Positions 20,116 to 59,637 of a stretch of 64,000 bases of DNA are shown here, piece after piece. The notes below the pieces were generated by a model. The model ran no database searches. It was not told the origin of the DNA and saw only the letters and a program-made list of their open reading frames with translations. How positions within the stretch are numbered: position 1 is the first letter of the stretch; the number at the start of each line of letters is the position of its first letter. The position numbers were made by a program, and so were the translations under genes. The DNA comes from Odiellus spinosus (taxonomy: Eukaryota; Arthropoda; Arachnida; Opiliones; Phalangiidae), in contig OY987226.1 in the NCBI GenBank assembly GCA_963920705.1, positions 32,229,686 to 32,293,685 of the forward strand, read 5' to 3'.

Positions 20116-20139
20116 GCGATAAATTGAGGGGTCGGTCAA

Positions 20140-22819: not shown

Positions 22820-23360
22820 TGATGATTCAAAAGTGTTTGAAGACGGTTTCAAAGTCTTTAGAGCGAACGTGGCTCACGTATCTCTCAACGCGTGACGCCA
22901 TATACCCGCGTGTTCAAGGAGAGTCGGTAACTAACACTCTTATCCCAATGAGATTTAACATTTTGTATCATTCCACCTTACCAACTCTTCTTGAAATAAG
23001 TCTTCATCGATTCCGTTCTACTTCGTTAAAGGTTGTTTTTCGAAACTACACGCATACACGGAACAGCGCCAAACAGGAAAAGATACTTTCGGATCGAAAT
23101 CTCGAGGCGGCCGCGATTCAAGCCTAAAGAAGACTTTTTCTCAACGCTTTCAAGATGGAGAACATTGTGTACAACTTGACTACAATAATGATACCTTTGC
23201 AGGTATACTCGAATCGCGTTTCGAACATATAATACTGGCGTTCAAGAGCAGTTGGCATGGACTATTTAATTATTTTATCATTAAAGTTAAATAACCTCGC
23301 GTAGAAATTGGCGTTAGCTTTCCTCATTTTGTAAACTACTCTTGAATAGAAGTAATACTT
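22820..23360 (+). repeat. Diverged duplicate, copy 2 of 2 (partner 18740-20115)
   Basis: The start (22820-22870) matches both flanks of the 818-bp TTAA element at 18740-18770 and 19593-19625, so it preserves the unfilled site. 23005-23360 matches 19745-20115. The intervening 22880-23005 differs from copy 1, where the truncated Harbinger-like MITE sits. A frame across the core reads RFQDGEHCVQLDYNNDTFAG, then HIILAFKSSW, parallel to copy 1. Confidence 0.6.
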
Positions 23361-23364: not shown

Positions 23365-24546
23365 AAATAGTTTAAAAACAAGTTTAACGCTGCAGGAGAA
23401 GCCTTGGCTAGAGCCGTACGATTCATCAGCTAGGATGAATTACTACTTGTTCGAAAACAACAAACGCCTGAAGTATTACGCGAATGCCTCAAAAATAGAG
23501 CGTTGAGTGCTGCGATACGAAACTTCAAATAATTTATATTTTGAAAATTATTACAGATACATTTATATATCGGAGGACGAACTCGAAAAAAGAAAGGTAT
23601 GATAATCACAGCAAGGTGCAATGGAAAAATAAGAGGCGGATAGATACACAATGTGAAATTTCATAGGGAAAAAGTAGTTTGGGAACACTTCACGAAGGGG
23701 GATACTGGTTTTGGGGTCTCGGAAGATTAGCCAGCTATGCAGACCGTAGAGATGGGCACCAGACCAAAAAGCCTGTCCAACACAGCTCTTCGGTTACAGT
23801 TTATTTTTCTACTAGCAAAAACCTATGAAAAATCACATTTCCAGACCTTAGAACTTTCAAGCATTTTCTTCAATTTTCTAGACCTCTCCGCACATTTGAA
23901 AGGGATAATGAAGCTTATATTAAAATTGGGTTCCTGTACAAAGCCCATAGTTTTGAAAGATTTTTTATCACGCGAGTTTCGTTAAAGGATCAAATATGAA
24001 TTAAAACCCAGTTAAGCTGTCAACTAGAAGAGATGGCTATTTGTGACAGATATGGCAGATAATAAATTACATCTTGGAATGGACAGACAAAACCTTTTAT
24101 TACAACTCAGAATGCGCAAATATTAAATTTTCAAAGCAGCGCGATTCAGAAAATTTTTTCAAAACAATATTTTAATTTATTCCATAACGTAGAATGTCAC
24201 GCGACGATTTAAAATTTTATTTAATAGTTCCTTTAAGAAAAATAATGCGGCTTACGAAAGACAACATATTAAAATAAAGGGCAGAGTTATTTGTGAAAGG
24301 TTTGGCTGAATTAAACACTCAGAATCAGGTTCAAATATCAGCCAGTAAACAAGTATAACCTACCTTTAATCTATACTCGTAGAGTTAACATTTCAAATCT
24401 GTACTCCCAACGTCAGAATGACAAAGCTCTGGCAAGGAAAAAACGATGTTTTTAACGCGATTGCACCAATCACAGAATCACTTGTCAGCTTATTATATTT
24501 GGGCTTTCATGGATTGATCTAAGCGAGTTTTATTACGCGGTAATAG
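23365..24546. other. No gene seen; upstream part of receptor gene A expected here or further left
   Basis: Exons for the start of S1 and the N-terminus of receptor gene A must lie upstream of 24547, but none could be recognised. A fragment after an acceptor-like GCTGCAG at 23386-23392 is open for about 37 codons with no motif. Confidence 0.35.
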
Positions 24547-24738
24547 ATTATGGAAGATGACATGGACATAATTCTGGCAATGGCTAAATATCCCGGCGGA
24601 AAGAATATGCTAGATTTTAACGTAACATTCACTGTACCAGTCGCGGAATCTTGTATCAGACTTTTCTCCGCAAAGAACGAGACGGTGATAATGGAAGCCC
24701 CTGGATTGTTCGACGAAATTCTCAAGATGCCGGTCGAA
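24547..24738 (+). CDS. Ionotropic receptor gene A, S1 exon
   Basis: Receptor gene A codes a ligand-gated cation channel of the arthropod ionotropic receptor (IR) type, derived from ionotropic glutamate receptors and used mainly for smell and taste. This exon follows an AG at 24545-24546 and ends at a GT (GAA|GTAACG) in phase 0. It gives DDMDIILAMAKYPGG, LDFNVTFTVPVAE and SCIRLFSAK, the late S1 lobe of the ligand-binding domain, ending in LFDEILKMPVE. The next exon begins IWIG, so the junction gives the expected run into M1. The donor is weak, so a nearby alternative is possible. Upstream exons were not found. Confidence 0.72.
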
Positions 24739-25321
24739 GTAACGTCAAATTTATGTAATATAAGAATCGTGCGAAAGGATAGTACCACATCATCTTAGAC
24801 ACTTTATTACCGATTTAGGGAACGCTTCCATGATCAAGTAAATCTGATTTTAAAAATGATTTGTACTATCCTAGTCATTAGCTTATTGATATTTCTCGAT
24901 AGTAAGCCACTTAAATGAAATCATTCGTGAAATCAAAGCTATTTGATTGAAGAAAAAACCTCGCCCGCAAAAAAAAAAAAAAAAATATATCGCGAAGTCC
25001 AACGATTCTATTTTTAAAATAGTCTTCTCGTACCAGAAAAATTGTTTAGAGAAAATGTTGGAGAAAGTATTAAAATCCAATCCAATATTTTTAAATTTAA
25101 AACAAATTTTTGGTATAAGGGCTAATTTTCATCCGGCAGATTGTGCGGAGAAAAGCAAAAACGAAAACATACTTACGCCACGCTATCGAAAAAAACACTT
25201 TCATTAAAAATTTCCCGCCACCAAAAAAAAAAAAAAAAAAAAAAAAAATCTTTGCTCTCTGTACAATTTTGTTTTCGTTGCTAGTCTGAATAGTCAATAA
25301 CGCGAGCATTTTTAACATTAG

Positions 25322-25750
25322 CTTGCAGCAGAGGTATATAATAACCCCCTTAAGGGGGAAGTATGAAAGCCCCTATACTACCAATGCTAAAAATCACGAA
25401 CAACAAGAGCCCGCTACTGACTATCTAGGCCACTAGCTCGCGCTGGACTTCTCAATGTCGCTACTCTAGTAAATGGTCTTTGTATAAACAAGACGGCTCG
25501 ATTTGTGTTTAGAACTTCCTGTCTCAGGAGTCAGGCTGTCTGTTAAAATCGAGTCGAAGGTTGACTTCAGCTCGCAAGTTCCGGAAGTGTGCGTAGGGAA
25601 AATTTAGTGAGGTTCAAAATGGAGTAACTATTTTTTGGGAGTAAAGCGGTGTGTCGATCCGCCGCGATTTACGCCGGGCACTTGTTCGTCGATTTTGCCT
25701 ACCTTTCATACTTCCCCCCGATGGGGGTTATTATATACCTCTGCTTGCAG
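25322..25750. mobile_element. 415-bp hAT-like MITE in the first known intron of gene A
   Basis: Element 25329-25743 begins CAGAGGTATATAATAACCCC and ends with its inverse. It is flanked by CTTGCAG (25322-25328, 25744-25750), 7 bp perfect, or 8 bp (GCTTGCAG) if one G is shared with the end. CAG termini and a 7-8 bp duplication point to hAT. A further hairpin CCCCCTTAAGGGGG lies just inside the left end. Confidence 0.85.
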
Positions 25751-26020
25751 GAATTCCTATGGGATGTTAGAATTCTTCTTTCTCAACATTTCTTCGATTT
25801 ATTACCAGGGAAATAAGAGAATAATTTGGAAAAAACATACAGGTTATTCTTTGTTGAAAGGAATTATTTTCATCCCATTTTAAATTTGCCAAGGTTGTGG
25901 TACAATCCCTTGAACGATAGTCATTGGTTACGGAGTGAGGCCCCCTCCGATAACAGTGAATAATCGTAAATTAGTCGAACTGCTTTAAGAATTTTTATTA
26001 AAGACACTACACAATGGCAG

Positions 26021-26162
26021 ATTTGGATCGGAATTGCCTTGGTGTTTATTTTTTTGACTACGATTGAGATTATCGAAAAACGAATCTTGGGAATTCGAAG
26101 AAATATTATCAGTTGCGCCTATGATAATCTATTTCAACAGTTTGCGACCGTTTTGGGAAAAA
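26021..26162 (+). CDS. Ionotropic receptor gene A, M1 and pore-loop exon
   Basis: Begins after AG at 26019-26020 in phase 0 with IWIGIALVFIFLTTIEII, a membrane segment in the M1 position. It then has a short polar loop and NLFQQFATVLGK, the pore-loop helix (IRs commonly have LLGQS here). It ends at 26162 with GT (A|GTAAGC) in phase 1. The leftover A joins GT of the next exon to code serine, giving LGKS. The intron is 289 bp (26163-26451). The corresponding exon of gene B (63081-63219) starts and ends in the same phases, which supports both models. Confidence 0.82.
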
Positions 26163-26451
26163 GTAAGCATCGTTTAAAGGTGGCGGGAGTTCCGAATCAA
26201 TTTCTTACAGTTACCAAAAGCCTGGCTCGAACACTATATTACTGTTACAACATCGCCAGAACGGCAGGACAAAACCCCCTGATGAACAAGGCCCCCTTTT
26301 CCCCGTCGATTAGGCGCGAATGTGGCGGTAAACTGGTGGTACAAATTCAACGTTTCTGACTGAAGTAGCGAGAATACTTTGGAAGCTTCAGCGCGTTTGG
26401 CGAACTCGTCTCAACCCAAATAAACGGACTATGCTTATTTATTTTGACAAG

Positions 26452-26669
26452 GTTACGACGTCTCCCGATTGCCGGCTATCAGAATTGTCACCGGGCCCTG
26501 GCTTCTACAAGTTGTGGTTCTGTTCACCTTAATATGCGCGCTTCTAACGGCGAATTTCTCGAGAAAACAAGAAAAAAGCATCGACTCCGTTAAAGACTTC
26601 TTCGCAGGTTCATCGTATCTCAATCTCTTCTTTATCGCTGATGATGTCGAAAACGAAATTTTTCATTCG
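26452..26669 (+). CDS. Ionotropic receptor gene A, M3 exon
   Basis: Begins after AG at 26450-26451, completes the serine codon and reads YDVSRLPAIRIVTGPWLLQV, then VVLFTLICALLTANFSRKQE. R..TG.W followed by a hydrophobic segment ending in a degenerate SYTANL-like motif (LLTANF) is the M3 region of IRs. KSIDSVKDFF follows, the usual start of S2. The donor is TCG|GTAAGA at 26670 in phase 0. The next exon (40321) starts in phase 0 about 13.65 kb away, so the intron holds the 14-bp array element, the P relic, a second array element, a palindromic MITE and the Copia relic. Confidence 0.82.
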
Positions 26670-26790
26670 GTAAGAGGAAAAAATCATTTCCATTTTCCTA
26701 TTTTACTACTCCGTGAATTTGCCATTTTCATTCACAGATATATTTAACACCGAAGGTCTATCACTTTATTCCATAAAAGTAAACGTCCCG

Positions 26791-26832
26791 TTTGCTGATA
26801 GTATTAGGCTATAGCTTAATACTATCAGCAAA
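26791..26832. repeat. 42-bp near-perfect hairpin
   Basis: TTTGCTGATAGTATTA pairs with TAATACTATCAGCAAA around GGCTATAGCT. Intronic in gene A. Could be a foldback remnant; no other copy noticed. Confidence 0.7.
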
Positions 26833-26834
26833 TT

Positions 26835-27120
26835 AGAGCCGGGTAGACGGGCGCGTTCAGACTATCCAACTTTAGTCAGCTGACAAAGTCTGACTGACCA
26901 GTCGGTCCAGTTTGTCAGGCAATGTGAACGTTTCACCCGACCGTACTATTGTCAGGTCGAAGCTCGCATTTTAATCGGGTATATAGGTAGGCGATTTGTG
27001 TCGGGCCGACTATAATCGGAGAGGAAGCAAACCAATCAAAATAGGCGAAAACATTACGTCAAGGGACGTGTCGTTTTTTTCCGCGAGAGAGAGGTTCAAA
27101 ATAGCTATAATTAAATTAAA
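26835..27120. other. No gene seen
   Basis: Intronic spacer. Contains a GACTGACCAGTCGGTCCAG palindromic word near 26892 but no supportable feature. Confidence 0.35.
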
Positions 27121-27121
27121 A

Positions 27122-29467
27122 AACAAGATGGTCAAGCCCATAGGAATAGCTAGACCCCTGACATTGTAAAAGAGGCTAAAAGGAATGATTCTATAGCAGG
27201 GGTGTGTTATGCAGGCATAAACGCTTTTTAAACAATTTGAATGGCGTCTCGAGATTCCTTTAAACACGAAGTTGCGGAAATTTCTCGAGCCGACTATATG
27301 ACCGTGATCGTTTTTATGCGATATATTGAAAAAGACGAATATCCCCGCAGTCATTGCATTCAAATAATGTTTTCCAAATCATGTTTTCCAAATCATGTTT
27401 TTCATGTTTTTCAAAACATGTTTTTCATGTTTTTCATGTTTTTCAAAACATGTTTTTCATGTTTTTCAAAACATGTTTTTCATGTTTTTCAAAACATGTT
27501 TTTCATGTTTTTCAAAACATGTTTTTCATGTTTTTCAAAACATGTTTTTCAAATCATGTTTTCAAATCATGTTTTTCAAATCATGTTTTTCAAATCATGT
27601 TTTTCAAATCATGTTTTTCAAATCATGTTTTTCAAATCATGTTTTTCAAATCATGTTTTTCAAATCATGTTTTTCAAATCATGTTTTTCAAATCATGGTT
27701 TTCAAATCATGTTTTTCAAATCATGGTTTTCAAATCATGGTTTTCAAAACATGTTTTTCAAAATATCGCAGTCATTGCATTCAAATAATGTTTTCCAAAT
27801 CATGTTTTCCAAATCATGTTTTTCATGTTTTTCAAAACATGTTTTTCAAATCATGTTTTTCAAATCATGTTTTTCAAATCATGTTTTTCAAATCATGTTT
27901 TTCAAAACATGTTTTTCAAATCATGTTTTTCAAATCATGTTTTTCAAAACATGTTTTTCAAATCATGTTTTTCAAAACATGTTTTTCAAATCATGTTTTT
28001 CAAATCATGTTTTTCAAAACATGTTTTTCAAAACATGTTTTTCAAAACATGTTTTTCAAAACATGTTTTTCAAAACATGTTTTTCAAAACATGTTTTTCA
28101 AAACATGTTTTTCAAAACATGTTTTTCAAAACATGTTTTTCAAAACATGTTTTTCAAAACATGTTTTTCAAATCATGTTTTTCAAATCATGTTTTTCAAA
28201 TCATGTTTTTCAAATCATGTTTTTCAAATCATGTTTTTCAAATCATGTTTTTCAAATCATGTTTTTCAAATCATGTTTTTCAAATCATGTTTTTCAAATC
28301 ATGTTTTTCAAATCATGTTTTTCAAATCATGTTTTTCAAATCATGTTTTTCAAATCATGTTTTTCAAATCATGTTTTTCAAATCATGTTTTTCAAATCAT
28401 GTTTTTCAAATCATGTTTTTCAAATCATGTTTTTCAAATCATGTTTTTCAAATCATGTTTTTCAAATCATGTTTTTCAAATCATGTTTTTCAAATCATGT
28501 TTTTCAAATCATGTTTTTCAAATCATGGTTTTCAAATCATGGTTTTCAAAACATGGTTTTCAAAACATGGTTTTCAAAACATGTTTTTCAAAATATCGCA
28601 GTCATTGCATTCAAATAATGTTTTCCAAATCATGTTTTCCAAATCATGTTTTTCATGTTTTTCAAAACATGTTTTTCAAATCATGTTTTTCAAATCATGT
28701 TTTTCAAATCATGTTTTTCAAATCATGTTTTTCAAATCATGTTTTTCAAATCATGTTTTTCAAAACATGTTTTTCAAATCATGTTTTTCAAATCATGTTT
28801 TTCAAAACATGTTTTTCAAATCATGTTTTTCAAAACATGTTTTTCAAAACATGTTTTTCAAAACATGTTTTTCAAATCATGTTTTTCAAATCATGTTTTT
28901 CAAATCATGTTTTTCAAAACATGTTTTTCAAAACATGTTTTTCAAAACATGTTTTTCAAAACATGTTTTTCAAAACATGTTTTTCAAAACATGTTTTTCA
29001 AAACATGTTTTTCAAAACATGTTTTTCAAATCATGTTTTTCAAATCATGTTTTTCAAATCATGTTTTTCAAATCATGTTTTTCAAATCATGTTTTTCAAA
29101 TCATGTTTTTCAAATCATGTTTTTCAAATCATGTTTTTCAAATCATGTTTTTCAAATCATGTTTTTCAAATCATGTTTTTCAAATCATGTTTTTCAAATC
29201 ATGTTTTTCAAATCATGTTTTTCAAATCATGTTTTTCAAAACATGTTTTTCAAAACATGTTTTTCAAAACATGTTTTTCAAAACATGTTTTTTATTACTG
29301 ACAGACTAGAACTCAACACGCATAAGCTCCCTTACTATTTCGCTCGCGACGACTTGTTTATTGTTTTCGAGTTTTCATTACTGACAGACTAACACTCAAC
29401 ACGCATAAGCCCCCCTTACTATCTCGTTCGCGACGACTTGTTTATTGTTTTCGAGTTTTCATTACTT
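27122..29467 (+). mobile_element. Minisatellite-bearing element, copy II, with a 1.9-kb 14-bp array
   Basis: Opens with the conserved terminal block in the orientation opposite to copy I (AACAAGATGGTCAAGCCCAT, then ATAAACGCTTTTTAAACAAT, to about 27290). Then an array of about 138 14-bp units CATGTTTTTCAAAT/AA (27360-29290). It ends with two 85-bp units (TTACTGACAGACTA.AACTCA ... GACGACTTGTTTATTG) to about 29460. The array has higher-order structure: a GCAGTCATTGCATTCAAATA header recurs at about 27347, 27769 and 28600. The 248- to 686-codon open frames here read FSNHVFQIMFFKSC with 14-residue periodicity and are products of a 14-bp repeat. They should not be called genes. Confidence 0.85.
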
Positions 29468-31351
29468 GCCTCTATTCCATTTCGTACCGTTTTCATCAAA
29501 TGTGGAACGTCAGACACAAAGTAAATATAATCTCCCTGGGAATATAGGTTTTTAGTTTTGTAGCCAATTTCATCAGACTCTCCAACTCGACAGCACATTT
29601 TTATGAGCTTTTGATTAATACCCGCTTTGTCGCATACAACCGTTAGCACTTTGAAACCTCCCAACTAAAGATTTTCAACAGCTTCCCATAATATACTATA
29701 AAGTTCTTCGGCTTTCATTTTATCACAAGGGAAAAATGCGTATGGAAACTTGAAATTTCCTGTTAAACTTCTCACCATTAATTGCATAATGTGGGTGGCT
29801 AGCTGAGGCACGTCTTCTTTGCCTTCGGCATCTTCAACAAATTTTTTAATTTGATTTTGGGAATCTTTGTAATTAGTCACTCCAATTATTTCTCCAGTGC
29901 TATGGCGATATATCAAATCTTGTTTGACGCTCATCTCGTCTATCATTATGGAGATTTCTGATGGTCTTCGAGCTGATCATATTTGATGGTATTTTTCATT
30001 TCCTCTATGGTTTCAGGCCTAAATCCACTTTCACTCCTTAAATCTTTGGAGTAATTGTACAGAGTTCTAGCAGTTGGAAGTGTCATCGCTTGTCGTAAAG
30101 CTTCATAGGACGACGATGATTTACTTTTCAAGTAAAGACACCAATGTATAATTGCTGGATGCCATTTCTTCGGGCGAGTGATGTTGGAATTCGCTATTTG
30201 GAGCTGCTGATGTAAAAGAAACCTTTGAAATTTGGTTGGCGTTTCAAAAGGATTGTCTTTTAATATTTGACTGAGTTCAGCATTTTCTTCATTAGTAAGT
30301 TGTATACCGTTTGTGGCTAACAGGTTGTCAACTTGTTTCCTAAGCGATTTATTTTTCCTTGTTAAAGCCTGGTTTTTTAAGTTTTGTTGCCGTCATTCTC
30401 ATTCTTATTTGTTGCAAGTCTAAATTGCAAAGAGTAGTTTGCTTTGGAGTAATCGCACAATTTTTGAATAAGTTTTGGCGCAAAAGACTACAATTTTTAC
30501 ACCATCCCGTTGATTTTTTCTTGACATACTGGCATTTGATAGACCGGAGACTTAGATTTAGCGAATAAAAAATGAACTTAAAATATTTTTTAAGAGACCA
30601 ATTTCAACGCCATCTAGGATTTTTTTCTCAAAACACAAAACCTTTTACTTCCCCTTAATTTAACTTAACCTAAATATTAACTCAATTTAGCTTACCCTAA
30701 TTATTAACTTAATCTAACTTAACCTACATAGTAACTTAATTTAACTTATCCTAATTTTTAACTTAACTTAAATATCAATTTAAAAATTTGAAGAACCTAA
30801 AAATTTATACAAAAGTTTTACCTAACCTAATCCTATTTTAAACTTACTCTGTTTCTATATCAACTTAATTGTATAAGTTATTTGTACACACTATATACTG
30901 TCCTCTCTCTTGGAGAATTTACATTCAAGAGCTGTAATGGCCTTAGGGCCTTAGCTCTAAACAAAAAACGAAAAAGAAAAAGAAAAGAAAGAGTTTAACA
31001 TGGTATTGCTTTCGGTGTTAATTTCAGGTTCGTGCTTTGAATAGTTTTTCGTTCCAATTTTGTTTACGTTTAATAAATTTAATGGGTCCCGCACAACTTC
31101 ATTAAACAATCGTGAAGGAAAAGGATTTTCCTTCGTTGGTCCTTTTCCATCGACGAAATGCAAATTGCAAACATGGTGATGTTTTTTATCGTTGACACAG
31201 TAATATTTTCACGGTTAATTGATTCAATCCATTTTTGTGAAATATGTATATTTTTCCTTTTCCTACCAGGTTTTGGAACTGGATGAAAAGTTACATTCTT
31301 CTTGCAGCGAGAATCGCTACGACAATTATCGAAACAGCAATATCTCCCCAT
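29468..31351 (-). pseudogene. THAP/P-element-type transposase relic
   Basis: Starts MGRYCCFDNCRSDSRCKKNV, a THAP-type C2CH finger. After a one-base frame change it continues HHHVCNLHFVDGKGPTKENP with the second C and H. Further on are a leucine-rich coiled-coil stretch (LTRKNKSLRKQVDNLLA) and WHPAIIHWCLYLKSKSSSSY, EALRQAMTLPTARTLYNYSK, ISIMIDEMSVKQDLIYRHST and YIYFVSDVPHLMKTVRN. IDEM with the preceding LP..RTL and the D-PH-KT-RN block are known parts of the RNase H-like P/THAP9 transposase. At least three frame changes (near 31180, 30375 and 29955) make it inactive. The C-terminal part is cut off where copy II of the minisatellite element ends, near 29467. It lies in the large gene A intron, antisense to the receptor. 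Confidence 0.85.
30655..30860. repeat. TTAACTTAACCTAA-type degenerate repeat
   Basis: Words TAACTTAA(C/T)CTAA, TAATTTAACTTA and CCTAA.TATTAACT recur every 15-30 bp inside the P relic. AT-rich degenerate array. Confidence 0.5.
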
Positions 31352-31516
31352 CAGCTTGGCTAAGTTTGGACACTTTTTGGAAATCTAGCCCCCCTGCATT
31401 TATTACACATGACAGAAGAACGAAACCTTAAGGAAACCTCACTTAGACGTTCTTTATGAGAATCCTAACGTTTTTTTCAATTTTATAAACAGTTAAATTT
31501 AGCTTATAATCATTTT

Positions 31517-31800
31517 TAGCTAGACCCAACCCTAGTGGGGTCTAGCTACTGTATTCACTGCGGCGTCGGCGTGGGCGTTGGCGTTGTACAAGAAGACGAA
31601 ATACGTCTTCGAATCGAAAAACTTTCGTCTTCTTACCTCTCCGAGTGAACTTTTAGTTCACGGAGAGGTTCTGTCTGTTACGTCATCGAATAAGAAAAAC
31701 TTTCGTCTTCTTACCTCTCCGAGTGAACTTTTAGTTCGCGGAGAGGTTCTGTCTATACGTGACGTCAGAAGAAGACGTCATCACCCACGGCGCTTGACTC
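31517..31800. repeat. Repeat with terminal hairpin and duplicated CGGAGAGG hairpins
   Basis: Starts with the hairpin TAGCTAGACCC...GGGTCTAGCTA (31517-31548), then ACTGTATTCACTGCGGCG and a GGCGTC-rich stretch. A segment of about 65 bp follows twice (about 31616-31680 and 31696-31757). Each copy has the hairpin ACCTCTCCG..GAACT...AGTTC.CGGAGAGGT. Relatives: 59516-59600 (same start) and 35856-35892 (one diverged hairpin). Probably the end of a mobile element; no coding capacity. Confidence 0.65.
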
Positions 31801-32119
31801 TCCAATAAAATTCGCATATACAGTTATTAGCTTCTACCTTGCTGTAAACGTATATCCACCAAGTCTCATTGAAGAGCAGCAACCGTTCCTCGCTTGTTAC
31901 TTTATAATGATCAACGAGCGCCTTATATAGTATCTTTTGGATTCGAGTCTATTTTAGCCTTCTGAGGTTATAGCTTTTACTGAATTGAAACGTAATATTC
32001 ATTTAAATTAAAATGAAAACAGATTAAATGATTTAACTTAATCTAAAAACCAATGTTGCTGAAACTTAAATTTAATATAAAAGATATTTTCGAAGATATT
32101 CAATATTTTCTTATAGGTT

Positions 32120-33387
32120 GATTAGATAAAGGCGTGTTTTCACGGGTGTTCAAGATAAAATGAATTAAAAAATTTTAGATATTATGGTGCGTTTTCAGGG
32201 GTATCCAAGATAAGACAATAAAGATTAGATGTAAAGGTGCCTTCACAAGGTAAAAATTAATAAAGATTAGATATAAAGGCGTGTTCACAGGGTATCCAAG
32301 ATAAAATGACTTAATAAAGAAAGACGCGTTTCCAAGATAAATATGACTTAATAAATAGATATTAAGTCCCGTTCGCACGAGTATCCGAGATAAAATGACA
32401 AAGAAAATATATAAATGCCTGTTCGCACGGGTATCTAAGTTAAAAATTAATAAATATTCGATATAAAGCCACGTTCACACGGGTATCCAAGATAAAATAA
32501 TAAAGATTAGATATAAAGACGCGTTCACAGGTAGCCAAGTTGAATAACATTATTTGAAAAACAAGATTTGAAAAACAAAGATTTGAAAAACAAGATTTGA
32601 AAAACAAGATTTGAAAAACAAGATTTGAAAAACAAGATTTGAAAAACAAGATTTGAAAAACAAGATTTGAAAAACAAGATTTGAAAAACAAGATTTGAAA
32701 AACAAGATTTGACAAACAAGATTTGACAAACAAGATTTGACAAACAAGATTTGAAAAACAAGATTTGAAAAACAAGATTTGAAAAACAAAATTTGAAAAA
32801 CAAAATTTGAAAAACAAGATTTGAAAAACAAGATTTGAAAAACAAGATTTGAAAAACAAGATTTGAAAAACATGATTTGAAAAACATGATTTGAAAAACA
32901 TGATTTGAAGAACATGATTTGAAAAACATGATTTGAAAAACATGATTTGAAAAACATGATTTGAAAAACATGATTTGAAAAACATGATATTTGAAAAACA
33001 TGATTTGAAAAACATGATTTGAAAAACATGATTTGAAAAACATGATTTGGAAAAACATGATTTGAAAAACATGATTTGAAAAACATGATTTGAAAAACAT
33101 GATTTGAAAAACATGATTTGAAAAACATGATTTGAAAAACATGATATTTGAAAAACATGATTTGAAAAACATGATTTGAAAAACATGATTTGGAAAAACA
33201 TGATTTGAAAAACATGATTTGAAAAACTTTTACGCAACTTCGTGTTTAAAGGGATCTCGAAACGCCATTCAAATTGTTCAAAGAGCGTTTATGCATGCAT
33301 AACAAGCCCCTGCTATAGCATAATTCTTTTCAGCCTCTTTTACAATGTCATGGATCTAGCTATCCCTATGGGCTTGACCATCTTGTT
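32120..33387 (-). mobile_element. Minisatellite-bearing element, copy III
   Basis: Same plan as copy I: about six to seven 45-65 bp units (ACACGGGTATCCAAGATAAA, GATTAGATATAAAG) at 32120-32535, then 14-bp units GATTTGAAAAACAA/AT at 32550-33230, then the conserved terminal block to CCATCTTGTT at 33387. Unit variants are grouped: AAG-type first, a short GACAAAC run at about 32710-32745, AT-type last. This indicates local expansion. Open frames of 215-265 codons here are products of the repeat. Confidence 0.8.
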
Positions 33388-33477
33388 CTAATGTAACTTA
33401 CACCCCTAAGATTGGACAAAGTAGGGAAAGATTGGACGGGGGTCGTCAAACTTTGGACAGCATAGGACTAACTTTGG

Positions 33478-33515
33478 ACAATGCTTTTTTTATTGCAAAA
33501 AAAAAAAAATAATAA
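33478..33515. repeat. A-rich tract
   Basis: A-run and AATAATAAT stretch after a spacer with repeated TTTGGACA words (about 33412-33482), which resemble the spacer at 31395 and 34765. Confidence 0.4.
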
Positions 33516-33746
33516 TAAAATTGATTCAAAACTTATATTTTTTCGTGTATTGTTCCCTAGAGGTACATTTTCAAATAACTTGAAAAAAAAAATCGGCTAA
33601 TTAGCTTCACTGTTCAGATTCAGTGCATAAAGGACAAATCGAATTAAAAGACTCGCTTTCAATGTCTTTCTTCTCATATCACCCAGACGTCATCTGGTTT
33701 CCTCTTACTCCATAGTGGTTTAATAGACTTTAGTTAACATAAAATT

Positions 33747-34095
33747 ATACAAAAAATAGGTTGCTTCGCACCCTTAAAAAAACTCTTTATCTAACTCGAA
33801 TCAAACCCGTGAAGGGACACAAATTATTTGTTAGAGAAAGAGCAATTTCATATCTTTAAAATTATAGTTGGTAGATTTAGTCTACTACTTCAAAGATTTT
33901 ATTATTATTATATATTTTCCAAAAAACGGATAAAGACGACCTAGGACTAATGATAAATATATATACATTAAAGGAACTCCATCTTTAGCTAATTTTATTA
34001 GTGATACTGATAGAATTTAAAATTAACATCAATGGGAGAGGAAGGTTAACTAGGTCGTCTTTATCCGTTTTTTGGAAAATATATAATAATAATAA
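33747..34095. mobile_element. Palindromic MITE, copy 2, centre flipped
   Basis: Left arm (TACAAAAAATAGGTTGCTTC) and centre match 17689-18191, but the roughly 105-bp centre is in the reverse direction, so the element is inserted the other way round. The right arm stops after GGAAAATATATAATAATAAT and passes directly into the tandem block at 34096. Confidence 0.8.
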
Positions 34096-34690
34096 TACCT
34101 TATCAATCTTTTATTATTGAACTCTTTGTTTAACCAAGAGAGAATTCAATAGTTATTCCTAATCATTCTACTGTTTAAGAAATAAAATTTTTGTTTACCA
34201 TTATGAAGCAATTAATAAAGCTCGGCTAAGCTTAAGATTTCACCCTTTTGTAGATCATTCTGACACCTTTCTCTCTATTAACTCGAATTCAATGGATATT
34301 GCTTATCACTCTACTGTTTAAGAAATAACATTTTTGTTTTAATTAATAAAGCTCAGCTTAGCATGTTTTCACCCTTTTGTAACACATTCAGGCACCTTAC
34401 TTTCTATTACTTCATATACTTTTTCAATATTTCATTATTGAAAGCTGTGTTTAACTAGAGATACTCTTGTACCCGAACGAAGTCTTATCAAATTTTTCAA
34501 AAGTACCTTTGTCTGTATTAATTCCAATTCAGTGGACGGTGGGAAGAGGGAAACGACGACGACAACGACGATTTCAGTTATCAAGCGCCGCGGGTCCATT
34601 GGAAAAGACATTACGGTTTCTGATGAAATTCGAGTTTAGATAAAGGGATAAACACAAACGTGTTTATCCTAATAAACACAAACGTGTTTA
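34096..34690. repeat. Block of about 125-bp tandem repeats, inverse of 15530-16170
   Basis: Reverse complement of the 15.5-kb block: TAAAGCTCGGCTAAGC, AGTGGACGGTGGGAAGAGGG and the AAACACAAACGTGTTTATCC hairpin (here twice) in inverse order. Two to three units. Joined directly to the palindromic MITE. Confidence 0.75.
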
Positions 34691-34699
34691 TCCTAATAA

Positions 34700-35625
34700 A
34701 TATTGGAAGAAAGGAATCTAAAATTCAAAGTGAAAATCTAACATTAATTTAAGAGTTTCCTTACTGTCCAAACTTAGCCACCCCATAAGCCTGTCAGAAA
34801 AAGTGTGTCATACAAATCATTCATTTAAAAGCCAAGGGTTAAGGTTATGAATCGAAATATAATGATTAAATCTACTATAATTCCAAGCCGCTAACAAATC
34901 TAATCGATTGAAAAGAAAAGAGACGTTATTTAAAACAAGTATGAGATGAACATTCCTCAAATTTTAACAAGTTTAATTATGAAAAGTTCGCGTACTTCCA
35001 TATTTGTCCTCTATTTTGGAAACGCGTCTTCCAACGAATTTTTTTTTGGAAAGCTTATTGGTAGGGCTAAATCGTATTACCGAGTTGCCGGAAAAATTCA
35101 GTACCAGATGGTAGTGACAATTAAAATTGTAAAAGTGTCCAAACTTACCCTAACTAACCATATATAGCAGACGAAGTTTATTAACAAAAAACATATATTT
35201 CGAGCTTCTTACGCCTATCATATGATGGCGCTACCTACTATGTCCGTCGATTTTAGCTCGGCTGAGTCAGCCGTAGATGAATCGCGCAGCTCGTGTTGGG
35301 GGAATACAATTTTCTGTTCCAGAGGCACGAGTATTATATTCCTAGGTGAAACGTTGTGAGATATAATGTAAAGCCAAGTCAGTTATTTTTAAATACTTTT
35401 TATGATGCACCCATTCAACAACATTGTCATAAATTGTTTCCTAATTAGTTACCTACATTTACTGACTATTAATATAAGACACTTTATTTCTATAATAAAT
35501 ATAGTCACTTGGCAATCGCGAGGCAACATATCAATTTATTAGCGGTCTGACTCCCAGCAGCGCTTTATTTGTTGCCTCGAAAGAAGAAATACCACCAAAT
35601 TTGGTGGAATAGCTAATTTATATAT
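34700..35625. other. No gene seen
   Basis: Intronic AT-rich sequence. The 73-codon frame at 34946-35167 has no recognisable motif. Confidence 0.4.
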
Positions 35626-35660
35626 ATATGTAGTACATATATATACTACATATGTACATT
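35625..35660. repeat. AT-rich palindrome
   Basis: TATATATATGTAGTACATATATATACTACATATGT-like palindrome built from GTAGTACATATATA words. Simple-sequence hairpin. Confidence 0.6.
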
Positions 35661-35661
35661 T

Positions 35662-35745
35662 ACGGCTTTGGTCGACCATCGTTGGGTATAAATGCACTTT
35701 TTTAGAATTGTGAAGCAAAGCTACGTTTTTGTATAATTTCTGTTT
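35662..35745. repeat. Unfilled relative of the Harbinger-like MITE insertion site
   Basis: TACGGCTTTGGTCGACCATC ... GAATTGTGAAGCAAAGCTAC is the reverse complement of the two flanks of the MITE at 54797-54982. It shows the site without the insert. Confidence 0.75.
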
Positions 35746-35906
35746 GCTTTTTGTCGATTGAAGTTATGAAGTTATGAACTTAAATACGTTAACCCTATAT
35801 AATTAACGATGAGTCGATGATTCGCGTTTAATAACTATAGCGTTTGTTGATTTTTACCTCCACGACTGAACTTTTGGTTCAGGGGCAGGTTTTACACTGG
35901 TCGTGT

Positions 35907-35926
35907 CTGTGTGTGTGTGTGTGTAG
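35907..35926. repeat. (GT)n microsatellite
   Basis: About nine GT units following a diverged CACGACTGAACTTTTGGTTC hairpin related to 31616-31757. Confidence 0.8.
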
Positions 35927-35929
35927 GTG

Positions 35930-37600
35930 TCTGTTTCTTCCGCCGTAACCGGATATCACGTAACCTAGCTCGTGGAGCCAAACGTCTAGAGACGTAATTA
36001 TGCCAGCTTATTGTTCAATTCCGTTTAACGGGAATTACCTCCTTAAGCGTGGCTGCCACATTGAGTTTCAGGTCTCCCACTGCATATTATCGCCTTCCAT
36101 CATCCACTTTACGGTCGAACCTCGATGCTTGACAGTTGAAGACGATTATACGCAATGGGACGTCCGCCACTGTTATAAGCACCTCCGACCATCCCCACAC
36201 CAAGGTCCAACCTCCATTTTCCGATCTCAGCGGGTCATATTAGCGAGGCCACTAATATGGTCCACATAGACCTTTCACTCTCCAAACATCGCCCCACCTG
36301 GGTCAATAAGCGTTGCGAACAAAGCGCCTTTGGTTACGATAAACGTCTAGACATTGAAGGGAGGGGGTTTTCCTCCCAACTTCACTCGATTAATAAAGCC
36401 CTTCGTACGGTTTATATACTACCTTTTTGGAATGAATGCAAATGAGCCTTATAGTGCGATATCGTTTAGGGAAATGAAACGAAATATTAATTTATATAAT
36501 AATTAAATATATCGAAATGGTTAAACTTAATCTTATTAATAATAAATTCGAAAAACCAATTTAAAATTCGAGATAGTTTAGAAGATATTTAAGAAATTGT
36601 CCAAAAATTTAAAGAAATGGGACCTTTTAAAACCAGCTTGGGTTGGCAGCACGCGCTTAGCTGTTTTCCATATATCATTTACTCAAAAAAGCAAAGGTAT
36701 AACGGGCAGTATAGGCTTAGTCATGCTGCAAACTTGGGTTGGATTTAAGAATATAAATAAAGGTGCGTTTACACGGGCACCCAAGATAGAAACGACATAA
36801 GATTTAAAGCTGGGGCGGATTGTTAAACCTCTTAAGAAAAATGATAGTCGTATAAACTCTGCTTGAACAGAAGTACAGAAGGTTTCCCGTGTTTAAAAAA
36901 CAACAATTTTGAATAAAAAATGGGGAATAGATGTTGGAAAAAAAAGGCTTCAGTTTTCTCCACTATGAAACGTACCAAGAAACATTTCCGATTATTTCCA
37001 TGATCAAAAGCAGCCGTGTACAGTGAACTTCGTTAGCAGACCAGGAGACGAGACGAGACCATACCAGACGAAAGATAGCTATAATGACTTAAGTGAGATA
37101 ATCAACCAGCGCAAGATCATCACCATTTGAAGTCAACAGAGCAATGACACGGCTTTCATTTATCAACAGAAAGAGACGGCCTGGCTACGAAGAAAACATG
37201 CAAGCAGTGAGTGTTTTCGGACACGACATATGAGATACCTACAGTCAGTAAAAGCTCGACAGTTCTTCTAAACTTAAAAAAGCTATTCAACTATAAATAC
37301 TAACGGTATGAAAATTAGTCTACTTTCAGTCTTTATGATATTTTTTTTATCATAGGTGTGGAAACTAACGTCTTGTCAGCCGGTTTGGAAAATAACCTCT
37401 CGACTAACTCCATCCTTGGATTCTTCCAATGACTGGGATCACTCGTATGATGAAAATATCAGTAATGGTCCTCTAGTAGCACGACAAAACAAGAATTTCA
37501 GACGAAAACTGTACCGGAAGTAATTGCGAAGCATATACTGAAAACGGGTCGTAAATGGAACATTCAGTGTGGAATATTTCTTGGTTTGTCCAAGAGGAAC
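35930..37600. other. No gene seen
   Basis: Contains a single 60-bp unit like those of copies I and III (36755-36800). The open frames at 36000-36445 show no motif. 37000-37600 directly precedes the Copia relic and may be its foreign 5' junction; no 5' LTR was found. Confidence 0.4.
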
Positions 37601-37624
37601 TTGCTACCATATCTTCGTCGTTTT

Positions 37625-39810
37625 AATTCCTTGTCTTCCTTGCCATCCCAGGCTAAATCAAATCAGACAACAGCAACTTACCTCCAGAACCGGCCTCCAA
37701 GTTCATCGTTGAACAGAACACCATACGAATTATGGAATGGATCAAAACCAAAGATAAAACACATTCGAGTATTTGGATGTAGGCCTTTCTCTCATATTCC
37801 CAAGGACAAACGCACGAAATGGGATGATAAAGCCATGGAAGGAATCTTGGTTGGATTCGGTAACGCGACGAAAGGTTATCGTATATGGAATCCGAAAACA
37901 AAGAAGTTAACCATGAGTAGAACTGTACGATTTGACGAAAGAGAAAACATCGTCACGGACATTAAGCACTCTCAATTCGATTCCTCGAAGATCAAGCAAG
38001 AAGGGGACGAAATTGTAACGGATCACATAATCCCTAGCGTATCCGCTACCGTCTCAGACGAAGAAGATTACGAAACCGTCTCGAAAACGGATGTTAGCTC
38101 AACGTCAGAACACAATTCCTCTTCCACTGACGAAAGAAGCATACCAAGACGCTCCAAGAGAACAAATAAAGGGGTCCCTCCAAGGCGGCTCACGTATAAA
38201 GTAACGACGGAACACGTACGGGTACCTACAAGCTGGAATGATTTAGAAGGTTTACCACTTAGTCAGAAAACGAAATGGATCTCCGCAACCAAAGAAGAAA
38301 TGACGTCGTTGCAACTCCATCAAACCTGGGATCTTGTCGATCTTCTTCACGATCGCAAAACGATAGGATGTAAATGGGTCTTTAAGACGAAATTTGATCA
38401 GAATGGCGAAATCCAGAAATATAAAGCAAGACTAGTTGCCAAAGGATACTCACAGAAATTCGGTGAGGATTACGACGAGACTTTTGCACCCGTCGTAAAG
38501 TACGAAACGGTCAGAATTCTCTTGAGTATTGCTGCAGTTACATCACTCCATGTTCGGCATTTAGACGTAAAGACCGCTTTCATTCATGGGGACATTTCGG
38601 AAGAATTGTATATGGAACAGCCACCTGGATATATCGAACGTGGACAGGAAGATAAAGTCTGCAAACTAAAACACAGTATTTATGGATTGAAACAGGCTGC
38701 AAGATCTTGGAACAAAAAGGCCAATCAAGTACTTCTCAACGAAGGTTTCAAGAGAAGTCAAGCTGATCCATGCCTATACAGTAGACAAGAAAAAAAAAAA
38801 TGAAACGTGGACATACATCCTCTTATACGTCGACGATATGCTGATTGCAAATAGAAATGTTTCTGTCATCAACTCTCTCGCTAAAATTATAAATAAGCAT
38901 TTTGAAATCAAAGATCTCGGAGAGGTTTCATATTACCTCGGTATTCAAATCGAACGAACTGAAGATGGAATCTTTTACATTCATCAAGCAACGAAAATAA
39001 AGCATATGCTTGAAGATTTCAACATGACGCAAGCAAAGCCTTGCAAAACCCCTATGGACCTCGCCTACCAAATATTGGAAGGAGTAGAAGACCAAATGCC
39101 AAACAATACTTTATATCGCAAAGCCATCGGAGTACTATTGCATATTGCATATCGAGACCGGATATCGCCAGTGCAGTAGGAATACTTTGCCGACGAGTAG
39201 CCCAACCCCGAGAACGAGACTGGACTGCTACCAAACGAGTTATGCGATATCTCAAAGGAACTATAAATTTAACGCTAAGTCTTTCTTCAACTCCAGAATC
39301 AATTTTACAAGGATATGTCGACGCAGACTGGGCGGGCGATGAACATGACAGAAAATCCACAAGTGGCTATCTCTTTCAACTAGGATCTAACACAATAGCT
39401 TGGCTCAGCCGCAAACAAACTACTGTGGCATTGTCTTCGACAGAAGCGGAATATGACGCCGCTGCCAATGCCATACAGGAGACTCTATGGCTACGCCAAC
39501 TACTGAAAGAAGTGGGTCACCATTGAAGCTACCAACAGTTCTATATGAAGACAACCAGGGATGCATTAAATTGGCCTTATCCGAAAGAATGCATAGCCGT
39601 ACCAAACATATAGATGGAAAACATCACCTTCTACGAGATATGCAAGAGAACAGAACGATCAGTCTGCAGTATTGTCCGACAGAAGAAATGATCGCGGACA
39701 TCCTGACCAAACCCTTGAATGGAGTTAGACTCGGCTACCTTAGAGTTAAAGCAGGATTAACCGGACACTGTCGAGAAGGGGTGTTAGAAATAAGCGACAG
39801 CGCCCTAAAA
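37625..39810 (+). pseudogene. Copia-type retrotransposon pol relic, 5' truncated
   Basis: Order integrase, reverse transcriptase, RNase H, as in Copia. The end of integrase reads TATYLQNRPPSSSLNRTPYE then HIRVFGC and GILVGFGNATKGYRIWNP. RT reads WISATKEEM, GCKWVFKTKFD, YKARLVAKGYSQ, HLDVKTAFIHGD and LLYVDDMLIANRN with the YVDD active site. RNase H reads GYVDADWAGD, STSGYLF and LSSTEAEYDAA, and the C-terminus has YEDNQGCIKLA, TKHIDGKHHLLRD and ADILTKPL. Frame breaks occur in the A-run near 38790, near 39160 and near 39525. Gag, protease and most of integrase are missing. It lies in the large gene A intron in the same orientation as the receptor. Confidence 0.93.
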
Positions 39811-39985
39811 AATGAGACCTAAACCTGTTCTATTATTATTATATATTCTGTTTACATTATATTTTTTATTGATCATGTTTATACCTATAAAAGAGTATAC
39901 ACTGCTGTTATCTTGTTCAGTTGTCATTAAATAAGTTACGCCGTTAATATCGTTTCTTTCTTTAAGTTAGTTCAAATTTTCAACA
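39782..39985 (+). repeat. 3' LTR of the Copia relic
   Basis: Begins TGTTAGAAATAAGCG directly after a purine-rich tract GAGAAGGGG (39772-39781), and ends TTCAAATTTTCAACA, so TG...CA, 204 bp. It contains TATAAAAG (39886-39893), an initiator TCAGT 31 bp later (39917-39921) and ATTAAA (39926-39931), a compact promoter and polyadenylation layout. The beginning overlaps the end of the pol frame. No 5' LTR is present for comparison. Confidence 0.75.
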
Positions 39986-39989
39986 GCTA

Positions 39990-40320
39990 ACATAAATGGC
40001 TTCAATCGCTTAAAGCCAGCGTCAGACTGCAGCGCCGACTACCGGCGGCTATAAGAATCCTTTTTAAAGTATATCCATAAAAATGGATCATGTATTCTGT
40101 AGAGGGACCCACAGCGACGGTGGCTAAATTCCCGGCACTACGGCCCTCTAGTTAGTCCTACACAGAACTAATCTCTTCCCTACGTCTCCATACCGCGACC
40201 ACATCGCGTCAACAGCGAACTAAATAATAGCCGGGACTTTATAACTCAAACAAAAAACTATGGGGCTAAGTACTAGTGATATTATTAAAATTATCTGATA
40301 ATCTAAAATTTTGGTTCCAG
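39990..40320. other. Intron sequence upstream of the S2 exon
   Basis: No feature supported. It ends in the acceptor TTTGGTTCCAG used by the exon at 40321. Confidence 0.4.
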
Positions 40321-40562
40321 ACTAATGAAGAGCTGAAAATGTTTGGCGAATCCATCCGAAAGAGGATGAAAATAAGAGGAACTCCAAAAGATTTTATAGT
40401 GCATATCGGACATTTGGCCGATGCCGTTTCTGATTTGGAAAGCCACGGAGCATTTTTCAAAAACCCGATACATATGAGTTCCATCAGATACCATTGTCAA
40501 CTGTTGATGTACCAAGTTGGCCCGAGAATGAATCCAACCGCTTTGAAACTTGTCAACAACAG
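40321..40562 (+). CDS. Ionotropic receptor gene A, S2 exon
   Basis: Follows the acceptor TTTGGTTCCAG in phase 0 and codes 80 residues plus two bases: TNEELKMFGESIRKRMK, GTPKDFIVHIGHLADAVSDL, SHGAFFKNPIHMSSIRYH and NPTALKLVNNR. This is the second ligand-binding lobe, with the usual pattern of a helix, a strand-turn and VNNR at the end. The donor is AG|GTTAGT at 40563 in phase 2. Gene B has the corresponding exon ending LDNR with the same phase. The length (242 bp against 302 bp) shows how far the two have diverged. Confidence 0.8.
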
Positions 40563-40681
40563 GTTAGTTCGTCCTCGCGGGCAACTACCTAGAATACTAG
40601 GTTATGACTCCGAGGTTGCCTAGATAGCCAACATATGGATTGGAATGAAATATATTTTTATCGAGTTAGTCACGCGTTCAA

Positions 40682-40701
40682 AAAAAAAAAAAAAAAAAAA
40701 C
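40682..40701. repeat. Poly-A tract
   Basis: About 20 A in a row in the last intron of gene A. Confidence 0.6.
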
Positions 40702-41279
40702 AAAAAGTATCCTAAGCAAGGAACGAAAAAATATATAAAACCTTAGTCAGCATGCAAAATGGTAGTTCTGTTTAGATTTTCTGCTCAAAAGACGCGCCCA
40801 TAACCCCAAAAACAATATTTGGGATTTTAAGTTACACTAAATTTTACACTAAATTTAATCTATTTTTAATTAAAGGTCTCTCGAAGCTCTACAAGATGAC
40901 ATATTTTCAAAAACGCACTTAAAAGCGAGTTTTTTACACGCGTTTTAAAATTTAAATTATTTTTTTAAATAATTTTTAAGACAATGGTTGTCTCGAAAAC
41001 AAATTATTACGTGTATTTTGGGTTAACTTTTTTAAAAATAGCTTACATCTTATTCATTTACTCGTAGAAAGGCGGTCTTTTACGGACCAAACTTTTTCAT
41101 CGCGCGCGCCACTTTCCTTATTTATTCTCAAGTGATTAAGTTTATTATTTTAAAAAATTGCTAGGCTAGATTAAATTATCGAAATGAAAAAAGAACTCTA
41201 GTTCATATAGTCACAACTCAAGGCGCCATTAGTCAATGTCGTCACTTTAAAGGGCGCGATTTATCAAATTTTTTTTACA

Positions 41280-41590
41280 GTCAGTTAATGGGCTACAGCG
41301 GCTGCCTTTAGGCGCCTTGAGCCCATACAATTTTGGTCGTCGGTCTTGGGAAGGGGAATGGGGGAACAGGTGGGATAAGGGACTACACAGGGAAGAGGAC
41401 CCGGAATTGCCCACGCGATGGATGGAGGAGGGAAAGGGGAAGAGGAAGGACCATACCGTCGCGGACAATGCGCAACACTCCCTATGGTCAAGGGACCCGG
41501 GCGGGAAATTTCAGCGATCGCCCCAACTCGCAGAGAGAAATCTTTACGTGTATGGGTTTGTCGGAAGACCTGCCGACGAAATTATGCTAG
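41280..41590 (-). other. GC-richer segment, possible retroelement 3' end
   Basis: On the minus strand it runs into TGGGCTCAAGGCGCC, AGCCGCTGTAGCCCATTAAC, TGACTGTAAAAAAAA. This looks like a structured 3' end followed by an A-rich tail, as in some non-LTR elements. No reverse transcriptase motif is visible. The call rests on composition and the tail only. Confidence 0.35.
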
Positions 41591-41724
41591 CCAAATATTT
41601 ATGAAACATTAAATAAAATTAAAATGATAAAGTAGCATTTGTTCTCTTTGAATTAAAAATAGAAAACAACATCATTACCCCAGTTGCGATTAAAAATAAC
41701 CTTTTTGATTATTTTCAAATTAAG

Positions 41725-41882
41725 TAGAGGTCGGGATTTGGACAAGATAATCTGCAAACATTTGGTTAATCAGTTAAATATTCGCGATTACACGCATTTT
41801 TCATAGACTTCCCGTGATTAATTTCCAATTATGAATAAAGATAAAACAAACAGAAATAACCTTGTCTAAACCCCGACTTCTA
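41725..41882. mobile_element. 154-bp TA-MITE, copy 2
   Basis: Element 41727-41880 between TA (41725-41726, 41881-41882). TIR GAGGTCGGGATTTGGACAAG against GAAGTCGGGGTTTAGACAAG. It aligns with copy 1 (14634-14807) in the reverse orientation. Lies in the last intron of gene A. Confidence 0.85.
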
Positions 41883-42682
41883 AATTAAAGTCTTCAATAT
41901 AACTATTATCACGATAAAATCATAAATATCAATAAGGATAAACGGTTAACCAAACACTTGCCAATCTGCCTAGCCTTTTTAATTATCGTCCGCCGAAAAT
42001 CGCATCGATGGGGTAAAAGTGTAAAATATCTCAGATTAGGTTTTCCCGTGTGTGGCCAAAACGAGCGACCGACCGTCGCTCACCCAGATCGTAGAGATAA
42101 ATCGTCCCCCGAAAATCGCATCGTGTATGGGGCCCTTAATAATAAATAGTTCCAGCCAGCGGTTTTCAAATCTTTAGAATTATATTATCATTATTTACAT
42201 TTTTCACCACGGAGTTTCACCAACAAACCTATACTCGTGTCACCTGACACCACTACCAAAGTCTAGGGGACTCTTACTCTTTGTCTTCTCCGAGAGACCT
42301 ACACTCTGATGACATCACGTGGCGATAGATTTAGTTTCCAGTTTAAAAAACCAAACAAAGGCCTCTTTACAAAGTTTCCATTCTTTATATCTATTTTCTT
42401 TAGTGGAGTAGCACCGGTTTTAATCGTTCTCAACGGCGTCGCGGGGGCCTTTCCACTCACCTCCTGTAGGCTAACCCCTTTGTGGCTCGAGGTTCCCTAG
42501 TTTTTTAAATAGTTCAAGCTAAAGTAGTATAGGCGCTATTTGTCTCGATGTTATGTTCCGCGCAATTGTGAGAATTGATAAGATAAATATATATAAACTT
42601 CAAAATAGGGAAATGGTGGGATTTAAATGGTGACACCGATACGGATTTGTACTATTTAAAAAAAATTAACACTTTTCATGGC

Positions 42683-42902
42683 AGATTGCGTTCGTTCTTG
42701 GAAACCTCCCACATTACTCCCTGGTATCGATATCTCGAGAAAGACTTAAAATTCGACATTCTGCCCAAACCCAGATCGTCAGGAGAAAAAAAACTACGTA
42801 AAATTGACTGGAAAGATGTGGAGATGGCGTTCGTGGTGTGGGCTACTCAACTAGGAGTCGCTTTACTGGTAGTCGTAATAGAGACAATCATAGGTTTCTA
42901 AG
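42683..42902 (+). CDS. Ionotropic receptor gene A, M4 and C-terminal exon
   Basis: The acceptor TTTTCATGGCAG precedes an A that completes the split arginine codon (AG|A) of the S2 exon, giving VNNR-LRSFLETSHI then TPWYRYLEKDLKFDILPK. After a charged stretch comes WKDVEMAFVVWATQLGVALL and VVVIETIIGF with the stop TAA at 42900-42902. The hydrophobic segment with a closing glutamate is the M4 helix typical of IRs. An AATAAA lies at 43228-43233. The intron (40563-42682) is 2.1 kb and holds copy 2 of the TA-MITE. The frame is intact in all five known exons, so gene A could be functional if the N-terminus exists. Confidence 0.85.
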
Positions 42903-58818: not shown

Positions 58819-58824
58819 CTAAAA

Positions 58825-59510: not shown

Positions 59511-59515
59511 GTTTT

Positions 59516-59595
59516 TAGCTAGACCCAAGTCTAGCTACTGTATTCACTGCTGCGTTGGCGTTGGCGTCGGCGTCGTGCAAGAAGACGAAATCCGT

Positions 59596-59634
<39 letters not shown>
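59516..59634. repeat. TAGCTAGAC hairpin repeat and (TA)n microsatellite
   Basis: TAGCTAGAC...GTCTAGCTA (59516-59537), then ACTGTATTCACTGCTGCGTT and AAGAAGACGAAATCCGTCTT, matching 31517-31610. Then about 18 TA units at 59598-59634. Confidence 0.75.

Positions 59635-59637
<3 letters not shown>

Follow-up and report, generated by a model that had tools for sequence, protein, structure and literature searches.

A five-exon gene of Odiellus spinosus, divided by a 13.65-kb intron, is probably a divergent ionotropic receptor gene

The region analyzed here, referred to as the window, is a 64,000-nucleotide stretch of the Odiellus spinosus genome (C2:32,229,686-32,293,685; contig OY987226.1 of assembly GCA_963920705.1; genome of 443 Mb in 286 contigs). 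On its plus strand lies a gene, called gene 1 below, that an earlier note made from the bare sequence had described as a split ionotropic receptor (IR) gene of five exons with intron phases 0, 1, 0 and 2. Our analysis confirms that this five-exon gene is real and was correctly assembled: the phases are those proposed, all introns between the five exons are of the GT-AG type, and the same exons occur in the same order at other loci of the genome. The exons, labeled D to H, are listed below; S1 and S2 designate the segments of the putative ligand-binding clamp, and M1, M3 and M4 the membrane segments.

24547-24738, plus strand: exon D (exon 1 of the earlier note), end of S1 and linker before M1; phase 0 out; found in nine of the nine fetched paralogous loci
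26021-26162, plus strand: exon E, M1 and pore loop (IWIGIAL...FATVLGK), with a hydrophobic peak; phase 1 out
26452-26669, plus strand: exon F, which carries M3 (LICALLTANF) and the first part of S2; phase 0 out
40321-40562, plus strand: exon G, which covers the middle of S2 and varies more than the other exons; phase 2 out
42685-42901, plus strand: exon H, end of S2, M4 and stop, based on an acceptor conserved in paralogues, the frame and a hydrophobic peak

Joined together, exons D to H form an open frame of 336 residues ending with the TAA at 42899-42901, so that all five exons are indeed open as had been claimed, provided that the last one begins at 42685. The open frame depends on this position, which is fixed by the form of the acceptor conserved in the paralogues (CATGGCAG followed by A, and similar). 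A last exon beginning at 42609 breaks the frame, and the paralogue acceptors point to 42685 instead; a beginning of exon E at 25990 breaks it likewise. The idea of a pseudogene created by a frameshift at junction 4 falls away with the acceptor at 42685. Analysis of hydropathy reveals only three stretches able to span the membrane, namely M1, M3 and M4. The list of open reading frames (ORFs) shows the short exons and no long ORF, in agreement with the remark that no long ORF reveals the gene, and a megablast search of positions 22-44 kb of the window against phages gave no match.

The genome was searched with the gene 1 protein (its last exon begun at 42609), yielding 114 exon-by-exon matches at E values up to 10, the exons of gene 1 itself included. 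Nine paralogous loci were fetched, further ones being listed, and seven of them were spliced and compared with gene 1; the two not spliced are L049, whose last exon is interrupted, and L051, where the edge of exon F was unclear, and both are counted in the tally of pore residues given below. The seven spliced paralogues all share the four junctions, their phases, the GT-AG dinucleotides and an open frame, with identities of 60-70%, and exon E is 51-83% identical over its length across the nine loci. Since the exons of gene 1 recur in order at other loci, they represent more than chance. Gene 1 is thus no singleton: its subfamily, which comprises ten loci or more, has expanded within this genome, as the nine fetched loci and the further listed ones show.

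The affiliation of this subfamily was examined with profile searches. Lig_chan (PF00060) is the sole Pfam family found at E ≤0.01, and it is found in all eight spliced members, whereas two members searched as reversed sequences match nothing at E 0.01. The Lig_chan search that the earlier note had suggested for gene 1 did return a match, at 4.8e-4 (7.5e-4 with three upstream exons added), but its 20.4 bits lie under the curated cut-off of 30.8 bits; exon F alone gives an E value of 0.0099. The best spliced member reaches 6.1e-5 and 23.3 bits, and L051, a more distant paralogue of which only a part was available, 3.7e-6 and 27.3 bits. When a family profile built from the eight sequences was compared with 177,635 PDB sequences, GluA2 came out on top (E 0.36), the alignment being collinear through the linker before M1, M1, the pore, M3 and then M4, with GAILGKGYDIS facing GAFMQQGCDIS. 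Hydropathy and this collinearity together give the order S1, M1, re-entrant pore, M3, S2 and M4 with three membrane spans. LGKS and LLTANF of gene 1 stand where GluA2 has MQQG and SYTANL; these motifs, described earlier as far from the textbook forms, would fit a divergent IR. At least 77 places of the genome match PF00060 at E 0.001 or better (from 150 of 314 candidates), which indicates many exons resembling those of ionotropic glutamate receptors (iGluRs) or IRs. As judged by sequence comparison, the Lig_chan homology appears weak for gene 1 itself and firm through its relatives.

A second IR-like gene is encoded on the opposite strand of the window, with three recognizable exons:

63081-63219, minus strand: M1-pore exon, phase 1 out
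61637-61848, minus strand: M3 exon (KCYSGNLSSE), phase 0 out
58517-58818, minus strand: S2 exon, phase 2 out

The phases 1, 0 and 2 are those of the matching exons of gene 1, and the joined protein matches Lig_chan at 3.1e-6 with 27.5 bits. An HMM (Hidden Markov Model) of ten M4 exons, run over frames of at least 22 residues in the window and in nine flanking pieces of 10 kb, detected no M4 exon positioned so as to belong to this gene (58517-63219), which may be cut short. Its relative elsewhere in the genome, L029, matches the M3 exon at 2.9e-10 (51% identity over 43 residues) and, once re-spliced, scores 39.5 bits against Lig_chan; L028 reaches 42.6 bits, both being over the cut-off, and L032 25.4 bits. 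At the intron following the pore, a phase-1 donor with an open frame could be read in six of six further IR-like genes (L023, L028, L029, L031, L032 and L051), an alternative junction of the same phase also staying open in L051 and L031. On the level of gene structure, the intron phases common to the second gene and to these firmer IRs connect gene 1 with clear IRs. The earlier assignment to the IRs is therefore supported by Lig_chan, topology, collinearity with GluA2, shared intron phases and paralogues.

Other IR-like sequences were noted around the window and elsewhere. About 46 kb before the window lies an IR-like gene (L023, 1908-8538) with S1-M1-pore, M3-S2 and M4 exons, and about 20 kb beyond it an M4-like reading frame (L027, 681-956, minus strand, E 1.5e-4), perhaps another IR fragment. 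At C17:9.34-9.52 Mb and 9.15-9.25 Mb of the same assembly (G000) there are equal-score matches to the second gene, nine on one strand and four on the other, which likely represent a young tandem array.

Comparison with the paralogues also exposes three exons upstream of exon D, whose phases 0, 2 and 0 lead into it:

23155-23202, plus strand: exon A, probable, S1 (MENIVYNLTTIMIPLQ), phase 0 out, 5' edge uncertain
23396-23472, plus strand: exon B, probable, S1 (EKPWLEPYDSSARMNYYLFENNKRL), phase 2 out
23557-23596, plus strand: exon C, probable, S1 (read as K-YIYISEDELEKRK, with a split codon before YIYISEDELEKRK), phase 0 out

Their splice sites and phases make it probable that all three belong to gene 1. 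The flanks of exon A, CAAG before and GTAT after, are kept in L045, in L050 and in another copy that lies at 19917-19964 of the window; those of exon B, GCAG and GTATTA, are conserved in L045 and L047 and present in L050; those of exon C, ATTACAG and GTATGATAA, are conserved in four copies. The codon pattern is mixed. In exon A third positions lead in all three pairs that include gene 1 but in none of the three remaining pairs; in exon B third-position differences lead between gene 1 and L045 (3 of 4) and between gene 1 and L047 (5 of 8), but not between L045 and L047 (2 of 5); for exon C, where third positions do not lead overall, the pattern gives no support. For the upstream block that surrounds exon B, the best Pfam match has an E value of 0.41 and is not convincing. 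An earlier first exon near 22.93 kb (a VQGES/VQGEL piece) is conserved, but its splice edges are unclear and it was not used. No amino-terminal domain (ATD) is seen in the 55 residues upstream of exon D; the true start was not located, and an ATD may lie beyond. Three kb upstream of the exon A region, positions 19765-20124 hold a partial second copy of it (VEKIVYNFTAMMDPYK at 19917-19964), which may be what is left of a tandem duplicate.

The gene is divided by its third intron, which contains the following elements:

26670-40320, plus strand: intron 3, 13,651 bp, with repeats and mobile elements
27359-29292, no strand assigned: minisatellite with a 14-bp unit, about 141 copies
29419-31384, minus strand: P-type (THAP) transposase, broken into several short frames
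32356-33227, no strand assigned: second minisatellite block, with 50-bp and 14-bp units
37466-39822, plus strand: Copia polyprotein, broken into several short frames

Three frames of the P-type pieces, searched separately, match the TNP-like RNaseH domain (5.9e-16), THAP (2.4e-5) and the P-element HTH, the last at just 0.05. The Copia frame 37466-38803 matches RVT_2 (2.5e-56) and, in addition, SH3, the frames after 38803 being assigned to Copia by eye. The intron of about 13.65 kb and all the contents ascribed to it, two minisatellites, a P-type element and a Copia relic, are thus located, and both transposons are broken. In the paralogues intron 3 measures 1,654, 2,566, 1,543, 4,381, 428 and 2,070 bp, and in the one at C2:24.68 Mb, where the frame is open, about 18.2 kb (calculated from where L052 and L053 lie). 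This size range suggests that a large intron reflects ordinary accumulation; the earlier picture of a gene concealed in 18 kb full of transposons is consequently true but nothing special, as a paralogue has an intron of about 18 kb. Intron 3 would serve passively as a sink for mobile elements and be taken out by ordinary splicing. Similar 14-bp minisatellites occur in at least four places of the window (20634-20810, 27359-29292, 32540-33227 and 60067-60328), and the copies at 27.2-29.4 kb and 60.5-59.9 kb have, by eye, common flanking sequence resembling the core of a mobile element.

Taking these data together, gene 1 is probably intact and, with its several exons, a member of the divergent IRs, which form a variant branch of the iGluRs. 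Several observations weigh against this conclusion, some of them concerning the state of the gene and others its family. As to the former, gene 1 could be an IR pseudogene that died recently, its exons being relics that yield no protein; the reason could be the loss of an acceptor, the intron of 13.6 kb or the lack of a start. We regard this as unlikely, even though pseudogenes are common among IRs (43.8% in Blattella germanica, according to a part of PMC6175461) and the paralogue L049 has its last exon interrupted, for the five-exon frame has neither stop nor frameshift and all splice dinucleotides are intact. The usual acceptor AG of exon D, carried six bases further in by at least five of the nine paralogous loci (L046, L047, L048, L049 and L055), is mutated in gene 1, but the AG at 24545, six bases upstream, serves as a replacement and restores the frame. 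The N-terminal start or first exon of gene 1 was not found. The large intron need not be fatal, the paralogue at C2:24.68 Mb keeping its frame open despite its intron 3 of about 18 kb.

The rates of substitution bear on the same question. The ratio of replacement to silent substitution rates (dN/dS) was calculated for 28 pairs among the eight genes, seven of which include gene 1, and is given with bootstrap intervals. Over the 28 pairs the interval lies below 1 for the end of S2 (0.38, 0.24-0.60), the M1-pore exon (0.45, 0.27-0.79), exon G in its second half (0.56, 0.33-0.93) and exon D (0.68, 0.43-0.99); it includes 1 for the M3 exon and both its halves, the whole of exon G, its first half (1.05, 0.70-1.59) and M4. 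For the seven pairs with gene 1, it lies below 1 in just two of ten regions, the end of S2 (0.34, 0.19-0.65) and exon D (0.61, 0.37-0.89). Moreover, over the whole gene dN/dS equals 1.00 when gene 1 is paired with its nearest paralogue, and the changes on the gene 1 branch (17 silent, 45 replacement) do not reject neutrality (P 0.18); both results speak for a pseudogene. The coding indels, on the other hand, are all in frame: relative to L045, the nearest paralogue, none of nine is out of frame (in a codon alignment, but with both frames open throughout), compared with 17 of 21 in flanking sequence and four of four in intron 2. In simulations of random substitution the frame stays open in 14%, 7% and 3% of cases with 45, 62 and 82 changes, respectively. 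The frame of gene 1 has been kept until recently, and a present function appears likely from these sequence comparisons. Positive selection in exon G was considered and is not claimed: the first half of this exon has a dN above the divergence of intron 2 in 19 of 21 pairs, but its dS is raised too, and with this raised dS regional mosaicism or conversion fits equally well.

The remaining adverse points concern the family, for gene 1 might encode an unrelated three-segment membrane protein with a chance likeness to Lig_chan. No subfamily score reaches the curated cut-off. The E value of GluA2 is weak, an unrelated ATP synthase subunit, the only other match at E ≤1, following closely at 0.49; phmmer with the single gene 1 protein (last exon begun at 42609) retrieved no glutamate receptor; hhalign against six iGluR pieces and against seven other IRs of the genome gave P 0.09 each; and exon-level tblastn of gene 1 gave no firm match to other IR types. 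Such an origin is nevertheless highly improbable, given that Lig_chan is matched by the eight members, which hit no further family at E 0.01, that two of them searched in reverse match nothing, that the GluA2 match is collinear over M1, pore, M3 and M4, and that the intron phases are common with firmer IRs of the same genome. A search of NCBIfam found nothing for gene 1, and one of the eight members touches a beta-lactamase model at 0.097, which we take as chance. Finally, that chance ORFs were joined into a false gene, as their shortness and the lack of a long ORF might suggest, is refuted by the recurrence of these exons, in unchanged order and phases, elsewhere in the genome at several loci and has a negligible probability.

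The least ordinary feature of gene 1, read as a divergent IR, is its pore. In ten of ten copies (the window gene, L045 to L052 and L054) the pore ends with Gly-Lys, aligned to Gln-Gln of GluA2, which we take to be the Q/R site and the next residue. Without exception, the six other IR-like genes, namely the second gene, L023, L028, L029, L031 and L032, lack this pair at the pore position. According to passages of PMC7882480, the pore glutamine of GluA2 governs calcium permeability, and IR84a retains a glutamine; the excerpts of the literature consulted held nothing on point about a pore lysine in IRs. It is a speculative and rather doubtful suggestion that, with a ring of lysines in place, these IRs might be impermeable to calcium, might let anions pass weakly, or might act as silent subunits tuning a partner channel. 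If it were true, this would be an IR branch with altered ion selectivity plus a fast-changing binding domain (dN/dS about 1 in the first half of exon G), and the subfamily would offer a natural test of IR pore evolution. If the lysine has no effect on ion flow, the subfamily would be a routine addition to the catalogues of chemoreceptors.

The product of gene 1 would most likely be a tuning subunit. S1 and S2 would form a two-lobed clamp with altered ligand contacts, whose closing would pull on M3 and open a pore shared with co-receptor subunits in a chemosensory neuron; we infer the assembly with co-receptors, the chemosensory role and the existence of a ligand. A reading made from sequence alone recovered a five-exon gene that is split by a 13.65-kb intron and is invisible to an ORF scan. 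What is added is a divergent IR subfamily that has introns, in a genome where iGluR- or IR-like loci are numerous.

Further features of the window were also noted. Positions 1-3430 are occupied by a satellite whose 31-bp unit is present in about 111 copies and which has a higher period of 340 bp. Short TAACC (TTAGG-type) arrays are found at 11120-11179 and 47223-47260 and resemble, as we assume, the internal telomere repeats of insects. An ORF at 9160-9939 on the plus strand is presumably transposase-like, and an exon-like ORF at 7383-7655 on the minus strand, which has no Pfam match up to E 1, seems to us to resemble the start of a NIDO-domain protein.

Among known systems, GluA2 and the iGluRs share with gene 1 the collinear M1, pore loop, M3 and M4 as well as the pore pattern GAxxxxGxDIS of the family profile; gene 1 differs from them by Gly-Lys in place of Gln-Gln, by LLTANFSRK in place of SYTANLAAF, and in that no amino-terminal domain was found. 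The divergent IRs of insects and other protostomes, as described in part of PMC2924276 (Croset 2010), are alike in the order S1-M1-pore-M3-S2-M4, in very low identity to other IRs, in expansion within one genome and in a variable ligand-binding domain. In Drosophila, the same portions of that paper indicate, the vast majority of divergent IR genes are single-exon, whereas gene 1 has four coding introns and three more probable ones; the median dN/dS of 0.149 given there is for orthologues, and the values of 0.4-1.1 obtained here are for paralogues, so that the two are not like for like. The IR expansion of Blattella germanica (897 genes, in the sections of PMC6175461 used) is likewise a large IR family in one genome, but its massive clade is largely intronless, whereas the subfamily of gene 1 retains its introns. 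Thus, a fast-changing, intron-bearing subfamily of this type is variation within a known family, and gene 1 is an ordinary kind of gene.

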